From contig JAITIY010000015.1 of NCBI GenBank assembly GCA_031279185.1, forward strand, positions 1 to 37,367: DNA of 37,367 nt, written 5' to 3'. The notes below the pieces were generated by a model, which ran no database searches, had not been told where the DNA came from, and saw only the letters and a program-made list of their open reading frames with translations. This stretch comes from Holosporales bacterium (GTDB taxonomy: Bacteria; Pseudomonadota; Alphaproteobacteria; BNTO01). Position 1 is the stretch's first letter. Each line of letters starts with the position of its first letter. Position numbers and translations under genes: made by a program. Shown piece by piece: positions 1-29,536 of this stretch.

Positions 1-308
1 CTGACAAAATTGCGGCATCAATGTAAGGAGACTCCTGTATTTGTCAGGCCTGTGACATGCTTTTATGGTGTTTTTAGGAAGCTTCATAAAGTATTGTAAA
101 AAAAACATACGAATCATTGTTTGAATCGGGACGAAGACGGCGACAGAAATAGTTTGGCTCTCTATGAACAATGCCGCGCGAATGGAGTATATCTTAACCG
201 TGACGACTCTCGCGGGGCAGTCTCAAAGTACATGAACTTATACAGAACTTATACAAGATTCGTAAATGTTAGCCATAAATGCTAAAATGAAGCGTAGCAA
301 TTAATCAG

Positions 309-566
309 GTGTGCCATGTGATGTTTTCATTGAAAATCCATAATCTGTCATTAGGAGTAAGTATAATCCATGGTGTCCACAAGGTATCGTTTAGCTCAGA
401 ACTTGGACAACACGAAATATTAGCTGGTCACGCCACTTTTTTTACATTATTGGAGCCGCCATTTATGGTTTATTATACATCAGACAAAAGAACTGAAGTG
501 CAAATATTAAATTATGGAAATTTAATATTTGAGTCAAACACATGCAGTGTTTATATAGGGCATTAA
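309..566 (+). CDS. atpC: Divergent F1Fo ATP synthase epsilon subunit-like protein, N-terminal beta domain only
   Basis: 85-aa ORF; the segment GQHEILAGHATFFTLLEP resembles the epsilon motif GE.GI.PGHAP..T.L.P. GTG start at 309 or ATG at 321. Lacks the C-terminal helical domain. Confidence 0.6.
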   Translation: MCHVMFSLKIHNLSLGVSIIHGVHKVSFSSELGQHEILAGHATFFTLLEPPFMVYYTSDKRTEVQILNYGNLIFESNTCSVYIGH

Positions 567-894: not shown

Positions 895-1329
895 GTGACA
901 GCAAAAATGAAATTCAATGGGAAAAAATCTCCACAAAAATTCCAAAAGCAAAATTTGGATCAGCAGAAGCAAAGAAATCAATCGCTATATGCTAAACATC
1001 TAGCACTTGGCAAAGATGCCGCTTCTCAAGGTGATAATGTTGAAGCTGAGAGAAATTTTCAGCAAGCAGAACATTACATCAGACTGCTAAACGACATAAC
1101 AGCGTTAGATGTAAATAGTTCTATATATCCTGTAAATAATGAAACTGAACAACAAAATGAGAAAACATTGGTGTTAGAACCAGAAATTGTAAATTCAATA
1201 CATAGCGAACCTGAAGAACAAAAAGAAAAACCTGTCAAAACGACTTGTAATAAAACGTTAACAAAACCAAAGTACAGTAGACCAAAAAAGAGTATATCAA
1301 TTGATGTAAGTAATAGTGACAACTTATGA
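895..1329 (+). CDS. DUF4167 domain-containing protein
   Basis: Contains ...YAKHLALGKDAASQGDNVEAERNFQQAEHYIRLLND, typical of the alphaproteobacterial DUF4167 family; GTG start. Confidence 0.8.
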   Translation: MTAKMKFNGKKSPQKFQKQNLDQQKQRNQSLYAKHLALGKDAASQGDNVEAERNFQQAEHYIRLLNDITALDVNSSIYPVNNETEQQNEKTLVLEPEIVNSIHSEPEEQKEKPVKTTCNKTLTKPKYSRPKKSISIDVSNSDNL

Positions 1330-1485: not shown

Positions 1486-2700
1486 GTGCGTATAGATCAA
1501 ACTGATTTTTCTGTGCTTTTGAAAAAATCAGAGAACGTTTTGCACATTTTAGTCTCACAAGGTGCAGAAGGTCGCCTTGTTGGTGGATGCGTCCGTGATG
1601 CTATGCTAGGAAAACACGTCGCGGATATCGACATCGCAGTGAACATTCCGCCTAATGATGTAGTTCAATTATTTCAAAGCAAGGGAGTCAAAGTTATACC
1701 AACTGGTATAGATCACGGTACAGTAACAGTCATCTTAGATTACGTAGCCTTTGAATTAACATCACTACGCAAAGACGTTCGTACAGACGGAAGACACGCG
1801 CTGGTAAGCTATACAACAAATTGGATTGAAGATGCTGAACGACGTGATTTTACTATAAATGCTCTTTATCTTGATCAAAATTGTACAGTCCATGACTACT
1901 TCAACGGCATACATGACTTAGAAAGAGGGATTATTCGTTTTATAGGTGATCCTTATCAACGAATAAACGAGGACTATCTTCGTATATTAAGATATTACAG
2001 ATTTGTACAAAGATTCAGTCGTAAAATAGATGATTTGTCATGTGTAGCTGTGAATGAGAATGTGCATAATGTGAAATTTTTATCGAAAGAAAGAGTACAA
2101 TCTGAACTTTTCAAAATTTTGGTAGAACTAAAATCCACATGCATTTTAATACAAATGAAAGATGTACTTTACGAATTATTTCATACAACACCAAATTTTG
2201 ATTTGGCAGAAAAATTAATAAATCACTGCTCCGTCAATTGTTGTACTGCAAATGAATGGATTCCTTTATTAAGATTATTTAGCCTTTTCCCACGAAATAT
2301 TGATTTTTTAAAGCAAAAGTTAAAACTATCGCATAAACAACTTAAATACATAGATGCAATAGTAAGCAATTTAGATAAACGTTTATCGTGTGCAAATCTA
2401 TTTTGTATACGACATAAATGTGGAGATGACGTCGCGAAAGGTTGGTTTGATATGAACGTTGCATTTAGTGATCCTTCCGAAAAGAATTACGAGAACATAC
2501 AAAAATTAGCAAATTCGTTTAATACCGCGATGCCAGCTTTTCCGTTAACTGGAAAAGATTTGATAGACATAGGTATCACACCAGGAATTATCTTGGGACA
2601 AATTCTAAATGAGTGTAAACAGTGGTGGTGTGAGAAACTAGGACAAGTCACGAAGAGTGAAGCTGTGAATTGGTGCAGGACACGAATCAATTCTATGTAA
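1486..2700 (+). CDS. cca: CCA tRNA nucleotidyltransferase / poly(A) polymerase family
   Basis: GGCVRDAMLGKHVADIDIAVNIPP nucleotidyltransferase motif and RRDFTINALYLD. Confidence 0.9.
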   Translation: MRIDQTDFSVLLKKSENVLHILVSQGAEGRLVGGCVRDAMLGKHVADIDIAVNIPPNDVVQLFQSKGVKVIPTGIDHGTVTVILDYVAFELTSLRKDVRTDGRHALVSYTTNWIEDAERRDFTINALYLDQNCTVHDYFNGIHDLERGIIRFIGDPYQRINEDYLRILRYYRFVQRFSRKIDDLSCVAVNENVHNVKFLSKERVQSELFKILVELKSTCILIQMKDVLYELFHTTPNFDLAEKLINHCSVNCCTANEWIPLLRLFSLFPRNIDFLKQKLKLSHKQLKYIDAIVSNLDKRLSCANLFCIRHKCGDDVAKGWFDMNVAFSDPSEKNYENIQKLANSFNTAMPAFPLTGKDLIDIGITPGIILGQILNECKQWWCEKLGQVTKSEAVNWCRTRINSM

Positions 2701-20015: not shown

Positions 20016-22205
20016 CTACAGCATGCAAGTAGAACATGACACTTCTTTGAACATAACTCGTTCTCTGTGTTCGCTCTGCTTGCCAACATTAAAACTGTCA
20101 ACTGATCTTAGATATCCCATGACACGAGTCCAAACTTCGCAACATTGACGCATTTCTTCAGGAATTACTGACAATTCAGGGTTCTGTTTTTTAATTTCAT
20201 TGTCACACTTTGGACAAAACTGATGTTCTCCTGGCAAATATCCATGTTTGTTGCAGACAGAGAAAGTGGGTGTAATTGTAATATATGGGATACGAAACAT
20301 TTTTGTAGTCTTTCTGATCATATTTTTACACGCTTCAGCCGACGAAAACCTTTCGCCCATATACAAATGCAAAACAGTTCCACCGGTGTATTTTTGTTGG
20401 AGTTGCGCCTGATGATTTAGTGCGACAAATGGATCATCTGTGAACCCAACTGGTAACTGAGATGAATTTGTGTAATATGGTGCTTCCTTTACACCTGCTT
20501 GCAATATATCAGGAAATCTTTTTTGATCCTCTTTAGCGAATCTGTACGTAGTACCTTCTGCAGGAGTTGCCTCTAAATTATACAAATGTCCTGTTTCTTC
20601 TTGAAATTTCACAAGATTATCACGCATACGATCTAAAAGACGACTAGCCATTGCAATGCCATATTCATCTGAAATATCGTGAGCATCGTTTGTAAAATTG
20701 CGAATCATTTCGTTTATACCGTTTATACCAATTGTTGAAAAATGGTTTTTCAGAGTTCCAAGATATCGCTTAGTATATGGATATAAACCACAATCCATAT
20801 AGTGAGTCACCATCTTTCTCTTTATTTCTAAGCTTTGTTTCGCGAGTTCCATTAGCGTATCTAATTTGTCCATCAATCCGTTTTCGTTTCCAGAGTAGAT
20901 ATACCCAATACGAGGCGCATTTATTGTCACAACACCAATAGAACCTGTTTGTTCGGCAGAACCAAACAAGCTATTGCCACGTTTCAATAATTCGCGTAAA
21001 TCAAGCTGAAGCCGACAGCACATAGAACGAATCATACCAGGATCTAAATCAGAATTAACAAAATTTTGGAAATAAGGCAGTCCATATTTTGCAGTCATTT
21101 CAAACAACAAATTGGCATTTTCACTGTCCCAAATAAAATCTTTTGTAATATTGTATGTTGGAATCGGAAATGTAAAAACGCGGCTATGTGCATCGCCGTG
21201 CGTCATGACCTCAATATATGCTTTATTGATCATGTCCATTTCTTTTTGTAAATCACCATATGTAAAATCAACAGCTTTCCCGGCGATTACAGGATGTTTT
21301 TTTGCCAAATCTGCTGGACAAACCCAGTCAAATGTAACGTTAGTGAACGGGCATTGCGAACCCCACCGTGATGGAACGTTTAAGTTATACACAAATTCTT
21401 GCATATTTTGAAATAGTACATCATATGAAATATTGTCTATTCGAATAAACGGTGCCAAATACGTATCAAATGAGCTAAATGCTTGTGCCCCAGCCCATTC
21501 ATTTTGTAATGTACCTAAAAAATTTACCATTTGGCCCATTGCACTTGATAAATGCTTCGGAGGATTAGATTCTACTTTGCCATGTACACCGTTAAATCCT
21601 TCTTCAAGAACCATTCTTAGGGACCACCCAGCGCAATATCCAGACAACATGTCTAAGTCATGTATCTGCATGTCTCCATCGCGGTGAGCTTTAGCCACTA
21701 ACTCTGGGTACACTTCATCAAGCCAATAATTTGCTACGACTCTTCCAGATAGATTCAAGATCATACCGCCAAGGGAGTATCCTTGATTTGCATTCGCATG
21801 AACTCGCCAATCCTGTTGCTTCAAATATTCATTTACAGATTGCACTACGTCAAGCGCGTTACGTTTGTCACGACGCGTTCTGTTGTGCTTTTCTCTGTAA
21901 ACAATGTATGCGCGCGCTGTTTTATAATGATTCGATGTAATAAGCGCTTGTTCGACGATATCTTGTATTTGCTCAATCGAAATACCGCCAACATAATCCC
22001 TATGTTTTATGATTTTTTTAACCTGCGCAGTAATTAATCGTGCTTCATTTTCTCCGAACTCACCAGTTTCCGTTCCAGCTTTTTTAATGGCTTGGACTAT
22101 TCGCTCTGCATCAAAACAAACCCTTTTCTGGTTTCGCTTAACTACTTCTGGAAATTCATCGATTTGTATTTTTGACGTCTCATTCTTACGCGCTTGCATA
22201 GTCAC
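20016..22205 (-). CDS. nrdD: Anaerobic (class III) ribonucleoside-triphosphate reductase
   Basis: N-terminal ATP-cone; NWLDE/HDLDMLSGYCAGWSL; zinc ligands CNKHG...CPKC; glycyl-radical motif RVMGYL near the C-terminus. Confidence 0.95.
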   Translation of the reverse strand: MTMQARKNETSKIQIDEFPEVVKRNQKRVCFDAERIVQAIKKAGTETGEFGENEARLITAQVKKIIKHRDYVGGISIEQIQDIVEQALITSNHYKTARAYIVYREKHNRTRRDKRNALDVVQSVNEYLKQQDWRVHANANQGYSLGGMILNLSGRVVANYWLDEVYPELVAKAHRDGDMQIHDLDMLSGYCAGWSLRMVLEEGFNGVHGKVESNPPKHLSSAMGQMVNFLGTLQNEWAGAQAFSSFDTYLAPFIRIDNISYDVLFQNMQEFVYNLNVPSRWGSQCPFTNVTFDWVCPADLAKKHPVIAGKAVDFTYGDLQKEMDMINKAYIEVMTHGDAHSRVFTFPIPTYNITKDFIWDSENANLLFEMTAKYGLPYFQNFVNSDLDPGMIRSMCCRLQLDLRELLKRGNSLFGSAEQTGSIGVVTINAPRIGYIYSGNENGLMDKLDTLMELAKQSLEIKRKMVTHYMDCGLYPYTKRYLGTLKNHFSTIGINGINEMIRNFTNDAHDISDEYGIAMASRLLDRMRDNLVKFQEETGHLYNLEATPAEGTTYRFAKEDQKRFPDILQAGVKEAPYYTNSSQLPVGFTDDPFVALNHQAQLQQKYTGGTVLHLYMGERFSSAEACKNMIRKTTKMFRIPYITITPTFSVCNKHGYLPGEHQFCPKCDNEIKKQNPELSVIPEEMRQCCEVWTRVMGYLRSVDSFNVGKQSEHRERVMFKEVSCSTCML

Positions 22206-22369: not shown

Positions 22370-23341
22370 CTATTTTTTCATGGCAACGATCTCTTCAATG
22401 GACAGTTGGGTGCAGTGGCTAACTGTTTCTGGCGGGATTCCTGCGGCTAGCATGGAACGGGCGGTTTCTTTTATGCCTTCTTCCTTGCCGATAGCGATGC
22501 CCTCTTCCTTGCCTTTCGCTTCACCAATAGCGATGCCTTCTTCCTTGCCTTCTTCCTTGCCAATAGCGATGCCTTCCTCCTTGCCAATAGCGATGCCCTT
22601 TGCTTCGCCAATAGCGATGCCCTCCTCCAGCCCTTCCTCACGAGCCACAGTCATCTCGCTGTTGTAATCGTTAATCGTCTTTTGTCGCAAATCTGCAATC
22701 GCCCGTACATCATCATCTGCGCTGATATATTTCAGCGCTTCCATCGCCGCTTTAACTTCTTTTATTTCAAGAAACGCGTCATCCATGAATACTGGATTTT
22801 TCAAAAACGACAACCACGCCGTCAGCAAATCTGCCGCATCTGCGTCTTTCGGATTAAATTTCGGTAGTTCGATAAAAATAATCCGCGCGGAGGCCGTCAG
22901 CACCTGATACGGGTCCGGATGATTTGCCTGAAACGTCATGTACGCGTCACTTATTGCGTTATGGCGCTGAGTCACATTCTGCCCAAGGATCCATATGCCA
23001 ATTACGTTTGGCCCTTTATACGACTCGCCCGAGTGTAGCGCCATCGGAACCATGTTTGCCAGGTAACAGAACGCCCTCTGGGGGATTTCGCCCGTGTTTT
23101 TGCACTGAATTTCGATATCCAGCTTGGTACCGTCGTCGGTTGTGGCCTTAACGTCCAAACGGCTAGCTTTGTTTGTTTCTAGGATTTTAGAGATATCCGT
23201 ATTTTCCAGCGTTATGTCTTTTATACGCGGCTTCCCCTTAAACAACGCATTCAAAAACGAAATCAATAACGGCTTTTTATCATCTTTGCCAAATATTGTC
23301 TTAAAAATGTAATCAAGCTTCGGATCTAACAAGTTAATCAT
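22370..23341 (-). CDS. Rpn family recombination-promoting nuclease / PD-(D/E)XK transposase-family protein
   Basis: MINLLDPKLDYIFKTIFGKDDKKPLLISFLNALF...DVKATTDDGTKLDIEIQCKNTGEIPQRAFCYLANMV. The likely start is the ATG at ~23341 (ORF track extends to 23404). Confidence 0.88.
   Translation of the reverse strand: MINLLDPKLDYIFKTIFGKDDKKPLLISFLNALFKGKPRIKDITLENTDISKILETNKASRLDVKATTDDGTKLDIEIQCKNTGEIPQRAFCYLANMVPMALHSGESYKGPNVIGIWILGQNVTQRHNAISDAYMTFQANHPDPYQVLTASARIIFIELPKFNPKDADAADLLTAWLSFLKNPVFMDDAFLEIKEVKAAMEALKYISADDDVRAIADLRQKTINDYNSEMTVAREEGLEEGIAIGEAKGIAIGKEEGIAIGKEEGKEEGIAIGEAKGKEEGIAIGKEEGIKETARSMLAAGIPPETVSHCTQLSIEEIVAMKK
22473..22635. repeat. In-frame degenerate tandem repeat array inside the Rpn-family gene
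   Basis: Repeated GCCAATAGCGATGCC(C/T)TC(T/C)TCCTT-type units encoding GIAIGKEE / GIAIGEAK / GKEE. Confidence 0.9.
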
Positions 23342-23527
23342 TGCGTATGCTCGAACTGTACCCACACTAAGATAATTATACTGTACTTGCGATGCTGACC
23401 GCATGATTTTTACACTAAAGGATCAATACCCCACAGGTCCTTACTCCCTAACAAAAAGAACAACTATAGAGATCGCGTAAAATGCAAGTTTAATTGTATA
23501 TACTGCGCATAGTTTTCGTTTGTTTCG

Positions 23528-23792: not shown

Positions 23793-24371
23793 GTGAATCA
23801 ACATATTCTCCAGTTTATGTGCACTTCAGCAGCTGGACGTTATGCATTGGCGTTGTTTAATGTAGCCAAGAATAACAATTCACTAGAACGAACCTTATTT
23901 GAATGTGAAACTGTAATAGAGGTCCTCTCTAAAAAAAGCGCGTATGGTTCTATTTTTACGCGCATGTTACAGGGACGTTTTATTAGTATAAATGAATTTA
24001 TTAAAGCGACAAAATTACAAGATTTTTTTGTACGTTTTTTGCAGTTGCTAATAAAAAACAACAGAATGTCTTTATTAAAAAATATAGTAAGGTTATTCAG
24101 TCATTTGGTTGACAATGAACTTAATCGCGAGTCTTTGATTGTTTACTCGGCAGAGGAAATAGCAGGTTCTTATAAAGAGAAAATCATGGAAAAACTGAGT
24201 AACAGTTTTAAAAAAAATCTTAGAATTACCTATAAAATTAACCCTAATATTTTAGGCGGACTATTAATACAATCTGCTACCATAACGATAGACGTTAGTG
24301 TTAGACATCAAATTGATAAGTTTTCAAAAGAAACATTAGAACGTCTATTGTTTTACGGAGGGAAGTCATGA
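23793..24371 (+). CDS. atpH: F1Fo ATP synthase subunit delta
   Basis: [16 protein letters not shown]...; directly upstream of atpA with ATGA overlap; GTG start. Confidence 0.9.
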
Positions 24372-25927
24372 AAATAAAGACATCTGAAGTCTCTGAACTC
24401 TTGCAACATCAAATAGAAGATTTCGTTCCATCGGCTGATGTATATGAAAACGGTGCGGTTTTATCAGTTTGTGACGGGATAATACATGCTCAAGGTCTTG
24501 AAAATGTACGTGCAGGTGAGTGGGTTGAGTGTATTTCATCCAGAACTGGTGAAATTATCAGAGGGATGGCGTTAAACTTAGAAGCAGATAATGTCGGAAT
24601 TGTTTTAATTGGTAATGGTACTGGAATAGAGGAAGGCGATATCGTACGTCGTACGAATCGTATACTTGATACTCCTGCAGGGAAAAGTCTACTTGGACGT
24701 GTCGTGAACGCGCTTGGCGAGCCAATTGACGGTAAAGGGCCATTGCTTGACGTTGAGCGTGTTCATATAGAACGAAGTGCACCAGGCATAATTGAACGTA
24801 AATCAGTTTGTGAACCAATGCAAACTGGGATAAAGGTAATAGACAGTTTGATACCTATCGGGAGAGGACAGCGTGAACTAATTATTGGAGATAGGCAAAC
24901 TGGAAAAACGTCAATAGCGTTAGATACAATTCTCAATCAAAAAATTCATCATCAAAGTGATAATGACGCGAATAAGATTTATTGTGTATATGTAGCCATA
25001 GGGCAAAAGCAATCTTCAATTTCTAGGTTTGTAAAAACATTAGAAGATCACGGCGCTCTAGATTATTCAATAATAGTAGTGGCAACGGCATCAGATTCTG
25101 CAGTATTACAATATTTGGCTCCGTATACTGGATGTTCAATGGGAGAATACTTTCGTGATCGATGCATGCATGCACTGATTATTTACGATGACTTATCAAA
25201 GCATGCTGTCGCGTACAGACAAATGTCTCTTTTGCTACGTCGCCCACCAGGAAGAGAGGCGTATCCTGGAGATGTGTTTTACCTTCATTCTAGACTATTA
25301 GAACGTGCCGCAAAGTTAAGTGATGCGCTTGGTGGCGGCTCGCTTACTGCGCTTCCCATTGTTGAAACACAAGCTGGAGATGTCGCAGCCTATATTCCTA
25401 CTAATGTAATTTCCATTACAGATGGACAAATCTTCCTTGAAACAGATCTATTTTTTCAAGGAAATCGTCCAGCAGTTAATATAGGAATCTCCGTTAGTAG
25501 GGTAGGTGGAGCTGCACAAACTAGATCAATGAAACGTGTATCTAGCAGTATTAAACTTGATTTAGCACAATATAGAGAAATGGCTGTTTTTTCGCAATTT
25601 TCTTCAGATTTAGATGAAAATACACTAAAATTCCTATCGCGCGGAGAACGACTTACAGAAATTTTGAAACAGCCTCAATATAGGCCAATGTCAAATGCTG
25701 AGCAAGTCGCAATTATTTACGCAGGTGTTAATGGTTATTTGGATGAACTTCCTGTTTCTGTACTAACTCAATTTGAAGAAGAATATATGAAATCACTTAG
25801 ATTTACACACACTGAATTGTTAAAACTATTTGATCAAGAGTCAATTACTGACGAAAACACAAAACAAATAAGTGACTTCATCAAATCTTTCGTTGAATCG
25901 TACAAGTTAAACAACAAAATAGCCTAA
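24368..25927 (+). CDS. atpA: F1Fo ATP synthase subunit alpha
   Basis: [43 protein letters not shown]. Confidence 0.98.
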
Positions 25928-25958
25928 AGATTGTAAGGGTATTTGTTGGAGTATCAAA

Positions 25959-26870
25959 ATGTCAGGACTACAAGATATCAAAAAGCGAATTCGAAGCGTA
26001 CAGTCAACGCACAAGTTGATTTCTGCAATGCAACTAATTGCAGCTTCACGTTTTCGTCAATCAATAAAGTTATTGCAAAATGCCAGGAGTTACGAAGATT
26101 CACTATCAGACGTATTGTATCGTGTTGTAACGATAAATAAAGAAAAATACAACAAAGCAAGACAATGTTTACCATGGTACTTAAAAGAAAAGGATGCGTC
26201 AAAACCACATCTTATTTGCGTTTTTGGTGCACAAAAAGGACTCTGTGGTGGGTACAACTTATCATCAATCAAGGAAGCACTCGCTGTTGAAGAACGTTAT
26301 AATGATAGAAGGTGCTTGTTTGCACCAATTACATTAAAAGCAGCAGAGTATTTCATAAAACGTAAACCAACACAAATCAAACATTTCGCAGGATTGGGAC
26401 ATTTAACAGATACTCATTACATGGATTTAGCAACAAACGTTTTCAATGATATAAATGAATTGTTTAATAACTCAGAAATTGGGTCAATTAGTATTGTTAG
26501 TGGGAAATTTGTGAACACGTTAACGCAACGTATTGAATCGTACGAACTATTTCCATTTGATATAACTAGTAAATTGCAAAAGCAACAAAATGCGCAACAA
26601 ACAGATTATTTGTCAAAGCAATGTTTAGTAGAGCCATCCATTGAAAAAGCGTTGCAACGTGGATTAGAACATCTTGTGCTAGTACATATTTATCGTGCGT
26701 TTATTGAGTCAGAAACGTGTGAAAACGCATCACGAATGACAATGATGGATAATTCCAAACGTAACGCAAAAGAATTAATTAGTAAGCTTAGTGTGCGATA
26801 TAATCGTACCAGACAAGCTAATATTACAAATGAATTAATTGAAATTATTGCTGGTGTAGCTGATAGATAA
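25959..26870 (+). CDS. atpG: F1Fo ATP synthase subunit gamma
   Basis: SGLQDIKKRIRSVQSTHKLISAMQLIAASRFR; C-terminal RNAKELISKLSVRYNRTRQANITNELIEIIAGV. Confidence 0.95.
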   Translation: MSGLQDIKKRIRSVQSTHKLISAMQLIAASRFRQSIKLLQNARSYEDSLSDVLYRVVTINKEKYNKARQCLPWYLKEKDASKPHLICVFGAQKGLCGGYNLSSIKEALAVEERYNDRRCLFAPITLKAAEYFIKRKPTQIKHFAGLGHLTDTHYMDLATNVFNDINELFNNSEIGSISIVSGKFVNTLTQRIESYELFPFDITSKLQKQQNAQQTDYLSKQCLVEPSIEKALQRGLEHLVLVHIYRAFIESETCENASRMTMMDNSKRNAKELISKLSVRYNRTRQANITNELIEIIAGVADR

Positions 26871-26890
26871 ACACACAATGGGGAATATAA

Positions 26891-28405
<1,515 letters not shown>

Positions 28406-28615: not shown

Positions 28616-29536
28616 TCAATCAGCTTGCGTTTCATTCTTATTGTTCTTTTTCTGCTGATTGAGCTTTGCTTCCGTTCCTCTTTTTGCTAAACAATTAACT
28701 ACCTGCACAACGCCCGCTGCATTCTCCGATGCGTTGTCATTTGATAAGAGTGAAAATTCATGCCGAAAAACATTACCAATATCAACGGGTTCTGGAGATT
28801 TTGAATGAGATTTATTCTTATTCAGCTCCTTAACCGCACATCGCAGGTTATTATATAATACATCAGGTATTCTATCACGAACAAGCGGTACTAGATTAGA
28901 CATATCATAACGCAGTTGTGTTGCTCTCATCATCATAGTATATGCTACGTTTGCTGTGAACTCATAGAATTTTTCATATTGATAGTGTGAAACACGTTCT
29001 CCACGCATAGCTCTTGCGTCAATCGCATCTACAAACATCCATGATACGTCTGGAGCAACAATAGCTAAGCACGTACCATGCAATGCCAAAAATGCTGTAT
29101 CGTTTTGTAATGGTCCATTAGCTAGCTGTAGCAACACCCCTGGAGTGAATGCATTACACAAACAATTATCTGATAATAGTTTCCCATTATGTGTGTTTGG
29201 TTTCCTCGGTACAGACACATGTGTAGTGTCACCAAGACATGATGAAAGGTATGTGTAATTCAGGAAATTTTCTTGAAAATTCTTCCTCTTACTACATAAG
29301 GCTACAGCAAACTGATCAAGAACTGTTTGTGGTACTTTGGTTGTCCAAGGAGCATATATGTTTATAAAATTTTCATATACTGATATGTTAGCATCTGTAC
29401 TTGTTGTCTTTTCTGACTGTTTGTGTGATGACTCTGTTTGCGGTTTTTTTTGTTTCGTTGTCTCTGTTGCACAAATATACTTGCCGTCGCATATAACAAC
29501 AGCGAGTACAGCAAGAATAAATTTCCTCATTTTCAA
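28616..29536 (-). CDS. Hypothetical secreted protein with conserved-looking cysteines
   Basis: 306-aa ORF with N-terminal signal peptide (MKMRKFILAVLAVVICDGKYICATE); no family recognised. Confidence 0.7.
   Translation of the reverse strand: MKMRKFILAVLAVVICDGKYICATETTKQKKPQTESSHKQSEKTTSTDANISVYENFINIYAPWTTKVPQTVLDQFAVALCSKRKNFQENFLNYTYLSSCLGDTTHVSVPRKPNTHNGKLLSDNCLCNAFTPGVLLQLANGPLQNDTAFLALHGTCLAIVAPDVSWMFVDAIDARAMRGERVSHYQYEKFYEFTANVAYTMMMRATQLRYDMSNLVPLVRDRIPDVLYNNLRCAVKELNKNKSHSKSPEPVDIGNVFRHEFSLLSNDNASENAAGVVQVVNCLAKRGTEAKLNQQKKNNKNETQAD

Follow-up and report, generated by a model that had tools for sequence, protein, structure and literature searches.

The DNA analysed here (the window) is a complete contig of 37,367 bases (C17) from a draft genome of 779,504 bases in 72 contigs that is 84% complete. 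Near its left end, 23 kb from the F1 genes atpHAGD, lies an open reading frame listed at 309-566 (+ strand, 85 aa) with GTG at 309, present as the original prediction had noted. The true start is probably the ATG at 321, giving 81 aa, because AGGTG stands nine bases ahead of it and the starts of the relatives' proteins align there (M-F-S/T/P-L). From this ATG the protein reads MFSLKIHNLSLGVSIIHGVHKVSFSSELGQHEILAGHATFFTLLEPPFMVYYTSDKRTEVQILNYGNLIFESNTCSVYIGH. The features are:

307..311, + strand: putative ribosome-binding site AGGTG for ATG 321, proposed from the sequence
321..566, + strand: atpC, epsilon subunit of the F1Fo-ATPase without the C-terminal domain (CTD), beta-sandwich only, 81 aa (PF02823, fold, family relatives)
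895..1329, + strand: DUF4167 protein gene, downstream neighbour of epsilon (PF13763, E 1.8e-10)
1486..2700, + strand: CCA tRNA nucleotidyltransferase / poly(A) polymerase family gene (PF01743, E 1.4e-32)
23793..24371, + strand: atpH, delta/OSCP (PF00213, E 4.6e-31)
24368..25927, + strand: atpA, alpha (PF00006, E 2.4e-82)
25959..26870, + strand: atpG, gamma, the expected binding partner of epsilon (PF00231, E 1.2e-65)
26897..28405, + strand: atpD, beta, last gene of the F1 operon, with no atpC behind it (PF00006, E 6.1e-67, and the list of open reading frames)

That the run from atpH to atpD (23793-28405) is not followed by atpC was confirmed: the next open reading frame, of no recognised family, is on the minus strand (28616-29536, 306 aa, no Pfam or PHROGs match). 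Position behind atpD, which is typical of atpC but does not define it, is thus not found in the window. Rfam and tRNA searches across the window returned no matches.

The protein is homologous to the F1 epsilon subunit and is folded as one, in agreement with the claim that the frame is epsilon-like. The 85-aa translation just reached the PF02823 (ATP synthase epsilon beta-sandwich) cut-off of 27 with a score of 27.0 bits (E 4.6e-6), covering profile positions 16-75 out of 80, and in the genome-wide search it scored 26 bits, slightly below the cut-off, as the sole PF02823 match in the 780-kb draft, in which no second atpC was found. The NCBI full-length equivalog TIGR01216 matched weakly (18.7 bits vs. 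a cut-off of 67.25, E 0.0014), which fits a single-domain form that has diverged. A local profile that included alphaproteobacterial epsilons gave E 7e-15, with the window protein itself in the profile; no second match to PF02823, TIGR01216 or the local profile occurs within the window, and epsilon had no match in the PHROGs search. The AlphaFold model (pLDDT 87) is all-beta, with seven strands and no helix. Its input alignment included 13 other short alphaproteobacterial epsilons, and the profile match to the PDB and the structure model both drew on an alignment containing other epsilons. All 50 matches listed by Foldseek against the PDB belong to ATP synthase, as epsilon chains, mitochondrial delta chains or models of either, the best among those listed being E. 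coli epsilon (6oqr_H, E 1.9e-5, TM 0.85), and the CTD-deleted Bacillus PS3 epsilon 8yh8 matched the window protein over its whole length (TM 0.85/0.79). It is very improbable that we are dealing with a beta-sandwich protein recruited elsewhere while the ATP synthase runs without an epsilon: the gene is indeed relocated and operon-free, and its similarity to the curated model is weak (18.7 vs. 67), but its invariant-His loop and fold are those of epsilon, the F1 and Fo genes are all kept, and no other epsilon was found.

The window epsilon stops at the boundary of the N-terminal domain (profile position 75 of 80 in PF02823), and the inhibitory CTD with its ATP-binding and inhibitory helices is absent. 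No frameshifted remnant of it lies 3' of position 566, where stops interrupt all three frames. The CTD model PF00401 found no match in the nine genomes of the family described below; this is a weak test, because the model also fails on the Caulobacter control. Since the CTD varies within the epsilon family and PF00401 misses Caulobacter epsilon, the absence of the domain leaves membership in that family intact. Green sulphur bacteria possess CTD-less epsilons, and an open-access literature search for naturally CTD-less forms returned engineered truncations only.

We compared the window gene with its counterparts in eight other uncultured "Holosporales" MAGs, which with the window genome make up the family (drafts 74-91% complete). 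The accession series of the contigs carrying atpD in this family is one that we take to be that of termite-gut MAGs. A review describes Paracaedibacteraceae in termite guts that form an uncharacterised clade (PMC11909080). Each of the eight other genomes contains a single PF02823 match, whose open frame spans 84-125 aa (80-116 aa from the starts). Invariant among the family epsilons, which all finish at the same strand, are an early Phe, the Gly and the His in the G..x.IL..H loop, and the closing Gly. G003 has the longest protein (L034:4986-5336, 116 aa), since one of its beta-sandwich loops is expanded by a low-complexity stretch of some 35 residues in which Lys, Ser and Ala abound. Mean differences between pairs of family epsilons are 0.54, 0.39 and 0.68 at the first, second and third codon positions, which indicates that the gene is under purifying selection. 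The predicted absence of the CTD is borne out and is common to the whole family; homology to epsilon, fold, conservation, single copy and, throughout the family, separation from atpD are shown as well.

These comparisons also bear on two doubts: that the frame is a remnant of an atpC in decay, or that the true atpC sits in sequence absent from the draft. The draft is incomplete (84%, in 72 contigs), the gene begins 309 bp from the contig end, and identity to the relatives is only 25-39%. Against this, eight relatives each have one short and no long epsilon, substitutions are biased to the third codon position, the frame is intact and its C-terminal end, at the domain boundary, is conserved, and no CTD remnant follows in any frame, so that such a reading is largely refuted and we regard it as having almost no chance of being right.

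The displacement of epsilon from atpD by 23 kb likewise held up, and non-adjacency extends to all family members. In the eight relatives atpD and epsilon occur on separate contigs, with other genes flanking epsilon; for G005, where atpD was not found, and for G006, where it is near a contig end, it is these flanks that carry the argument. In no family member did a sensitive local profile detect an epsilon in the DNA examined around atpD. There is no conserved epsilon neighbourhood among the eight relatives, the shared neighbours being one HD-type gene in G001 and G004 and one further pair in G005 and G008. Of the original wording that the subunit was "relocated", the separation from atpD stands, but it is not peculiar to the window genome, and either atpC or the atpHAGD block may have moved. 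A move of the atpHAGD block, which would have left atpC close to the CCA gene, its ancestral neighbour on the 3' side, is possible though not the likelier course: a CCA-type gene directly follows atpD in G001 of the family and in the distant alphaproteobacterium L059, epsilon is followed in the window by the DUF4167 gene and then the CCA-type gene, and a PD-(D/E)XK transposase gene lies upstream of the atp operon, but the CCA arrangement is known from two cases only and the neighbours of epsilon differ in every relative.

The transposase family gene (PDDEXK_2, 22370-23404) lies just upstream of the atp operon; homologues occur in G004 close to epsilon (L035:8730-9059) and in G003 close to atpD (L126/L049), and such a transposase may have brought about the rearrangements. 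Within a single genus of the family, atpD stands alone, apart from atpG (L127, L128, L129 and L130, in G004, G006, G007 and G008), and there the F1 operon is breaking up further. In a separate alphaproteobacterial group that includes deep-sea 'Dive' MAGs (L059, L063, L069), no epsilon was detected around atpD, the DNA of L063 stopping soon past that gene.

Truncation and relocation can be told apart by comparison with a neighbouring clade of 15 rows, consisting of 'Holosporaceae' and other gut alphaproteobacteria, whose epsilons have 78-97 aa and are beta-sandwich only (L056, L068 and L085, in which merely the open frames are longer upstream, are counted as short). In most of this clade the epsilon gene overlaps or closely trails atpD: the two adjoin or lie no more than about 300 bp apart in L051, L052, L056, L060, L062, L066, L070, L071, L087, L089 and L094, and in L091 and L096 one gene is inserted between them (about 2.4 kb). 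Because most of this clade keeps a CTD-less epsilon beside atpD, the loss of the domain and the separation of the gene are separate events. In a tree of beta subunits, which carries long-branch caveats, the other 70 rows form a group with 84% support that includes neither the family nor the short-epsilon clade. L041 and L078 intervene, and the L078 epsilon (115 aa) retains a partial tail; given this placement, the losses of the CTD amount to between three and four label changes rather than one fixed count.

Searches for a haem-copper oxidase (COX1), cytochrome bd and the succinate dehydrogenase/fumarate reductase flavoprotein (TIGR01812) found none of these in any of the nine family genomes. 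The inhibitor subunit zeta (PF07345) was likewise found in 0/9, the same search being positive in G027 and in the Caulobacter control. In drafts that are 74-91% complete a single absence of oxidase or zeta is weak evidence, and the pattern across nine genomes is strong. An ATP/ADP-type (TLC) nucleotide transporter is present in 8/9 family genomes. The Fo genes a, b' and b and a match to the c subunit are present in G000, which also encodes divergent complex I membrane subunits (NuoL, NuoM, NuoN and probable K and J; L169:3951-7768 and L168:5681-7141); with these complex I-like subunits the cells may still carry out some respiratory proton pumping, and hence ATP synthesis. The window itself carries NrdD, an anaerobic ribonucleoside-triphosphate reductase with an ATP cone (20016-22205), which is a sign of an anaerobic lifestyle.

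In E. coli, Bacillus PS3 and others the epsilon CTD is known to be inhibitory, and the original prediction held that its loss would alter the regulation of ATP hydrolysis. This part of the prediction is weakened. Removal of the CTD raises hydrolysis in E. coli and C. thermarum (summarised in PMC8039183), and the domain is absent both family-wide and in the neighbouring short-epsilon alphaproteobacteria, as would be expected if the main brake had been removed and ATP hydrolysis clearly de-repressed relative to the ancestors. In Paracoccus denitrificans, however, the alphaproteobacterium studied most closely, deletion of the epsilon CTD, alone or together with zeta, causes no substantial activation of hydrolysis, and inhibition by Mg-ADP has a major part (PMC8039183); another group reports that in alphaproteobacteria epsilon has a structural, non-inhibitory role and zeta is the inhibitor, zeta being missing from Holosporaceae and Rickettsiales (PMC9317440). 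The two groups disagree on the weight of zeta and agree that removal of the epsilon tail alone does not free the enzyme there. We therefore consider loss of a main brake unlikely. Since the CTD is not the main brake in P. denitrificans, its loss in the family took a domain that was perhaps already non-regulatory; the epsilon tail may have been free to be lost, and the effect on regulation is probably less than the original prediction supposed.

Taken together, these findings make it very likely that the window gene encodes a working epsilon that has been cut to the beta-sandwich and serves rotor coupling, in an F1Fo without dedicated protein brakes that is probably largely an ATP-driven proton pump. 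Made from its own transcription unit, the subunit would join F1 in trans, and by analogy with other F-ATPases its domain would clamp the foot of gamma to the c-ring, a clamp that would make the F1 and Fo rotors turn together. The enzyme would be without either of the dedicated protein brakes known from bacteria: with neither the epsilon CTD nor zeta, it would depend on Mg-ADP inhibition only. For the direction of operation we infer ATP-driven proton pumping; in anaerobe-like, host-associated cells F1Fo would often hydrolyse ATP and so hold the proton gradient, with ATP coming from fermentation or from import through the TLC transporter. More tentatively, and with somewhat more doubt than conviction, we extend this to an anaerobic, host-dependent family that runs a brake-less F1Fo mainly in reverse, on imported or fermentative ATP, to maintain its proton motive force while its F1 operon comes apart (with epsilon unlinked in every genome, and atpD apart from atpG in one genus).

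The combination of a natural CTD deletion with the loss of zeta and of the oxidases is the point of interest, as it amounts to a natural, clade-wide experiment on the purpose of the epsilon CTD. Comparison with relatives that keep the tail or zeta could show whether brakes are lost once the F-ATPase quits respiratory ATP synthesis. The family also illustrates that a normally essential rotor subunit can quit its operon yet stay conserved, and it corrects the assumption behind the original prediction, in that loss of the tail need not change regulation in alphaproteobacteria.

What the window gene encodes is a familiar protein, reduced and relocated in a way that one family shares. With the N-terminal domain of E. 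coli epsilon (PF02823; 1aqt/6oqr_H) it shares the beta-sandwich fold and the invariant-His loop, and like E. coli-type epsilons it occurs as a single copy per genome together with all the F1 and Fo genes, whereas it differs in having no C-terminal helical hairpin, in not following atpD and in its low identity (about 18%). In zeta (PF07345) alphaproteobacteria have an alternative brake on hydrolysis within the same class, which is absent in 9/9 genomes here. The short epsilons of gut alphaproteobacteria and 'Holosporaceae' MAGs (78-97 aa) are likewise beta-sandwich only, but their genes are, save in L091 and L096, still beside atpD and those of the family are not. In domain extent the window protein equals the engineered CTD-deleted epsilons of Bacillus PS3 (8yh8) and P. 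denitrificans (PMC8039183), of which the latter supports an enzyme that assembles and makes ATP (PMC8039183); those truncations were made in the laboratory, whereas the form in the window is natural.
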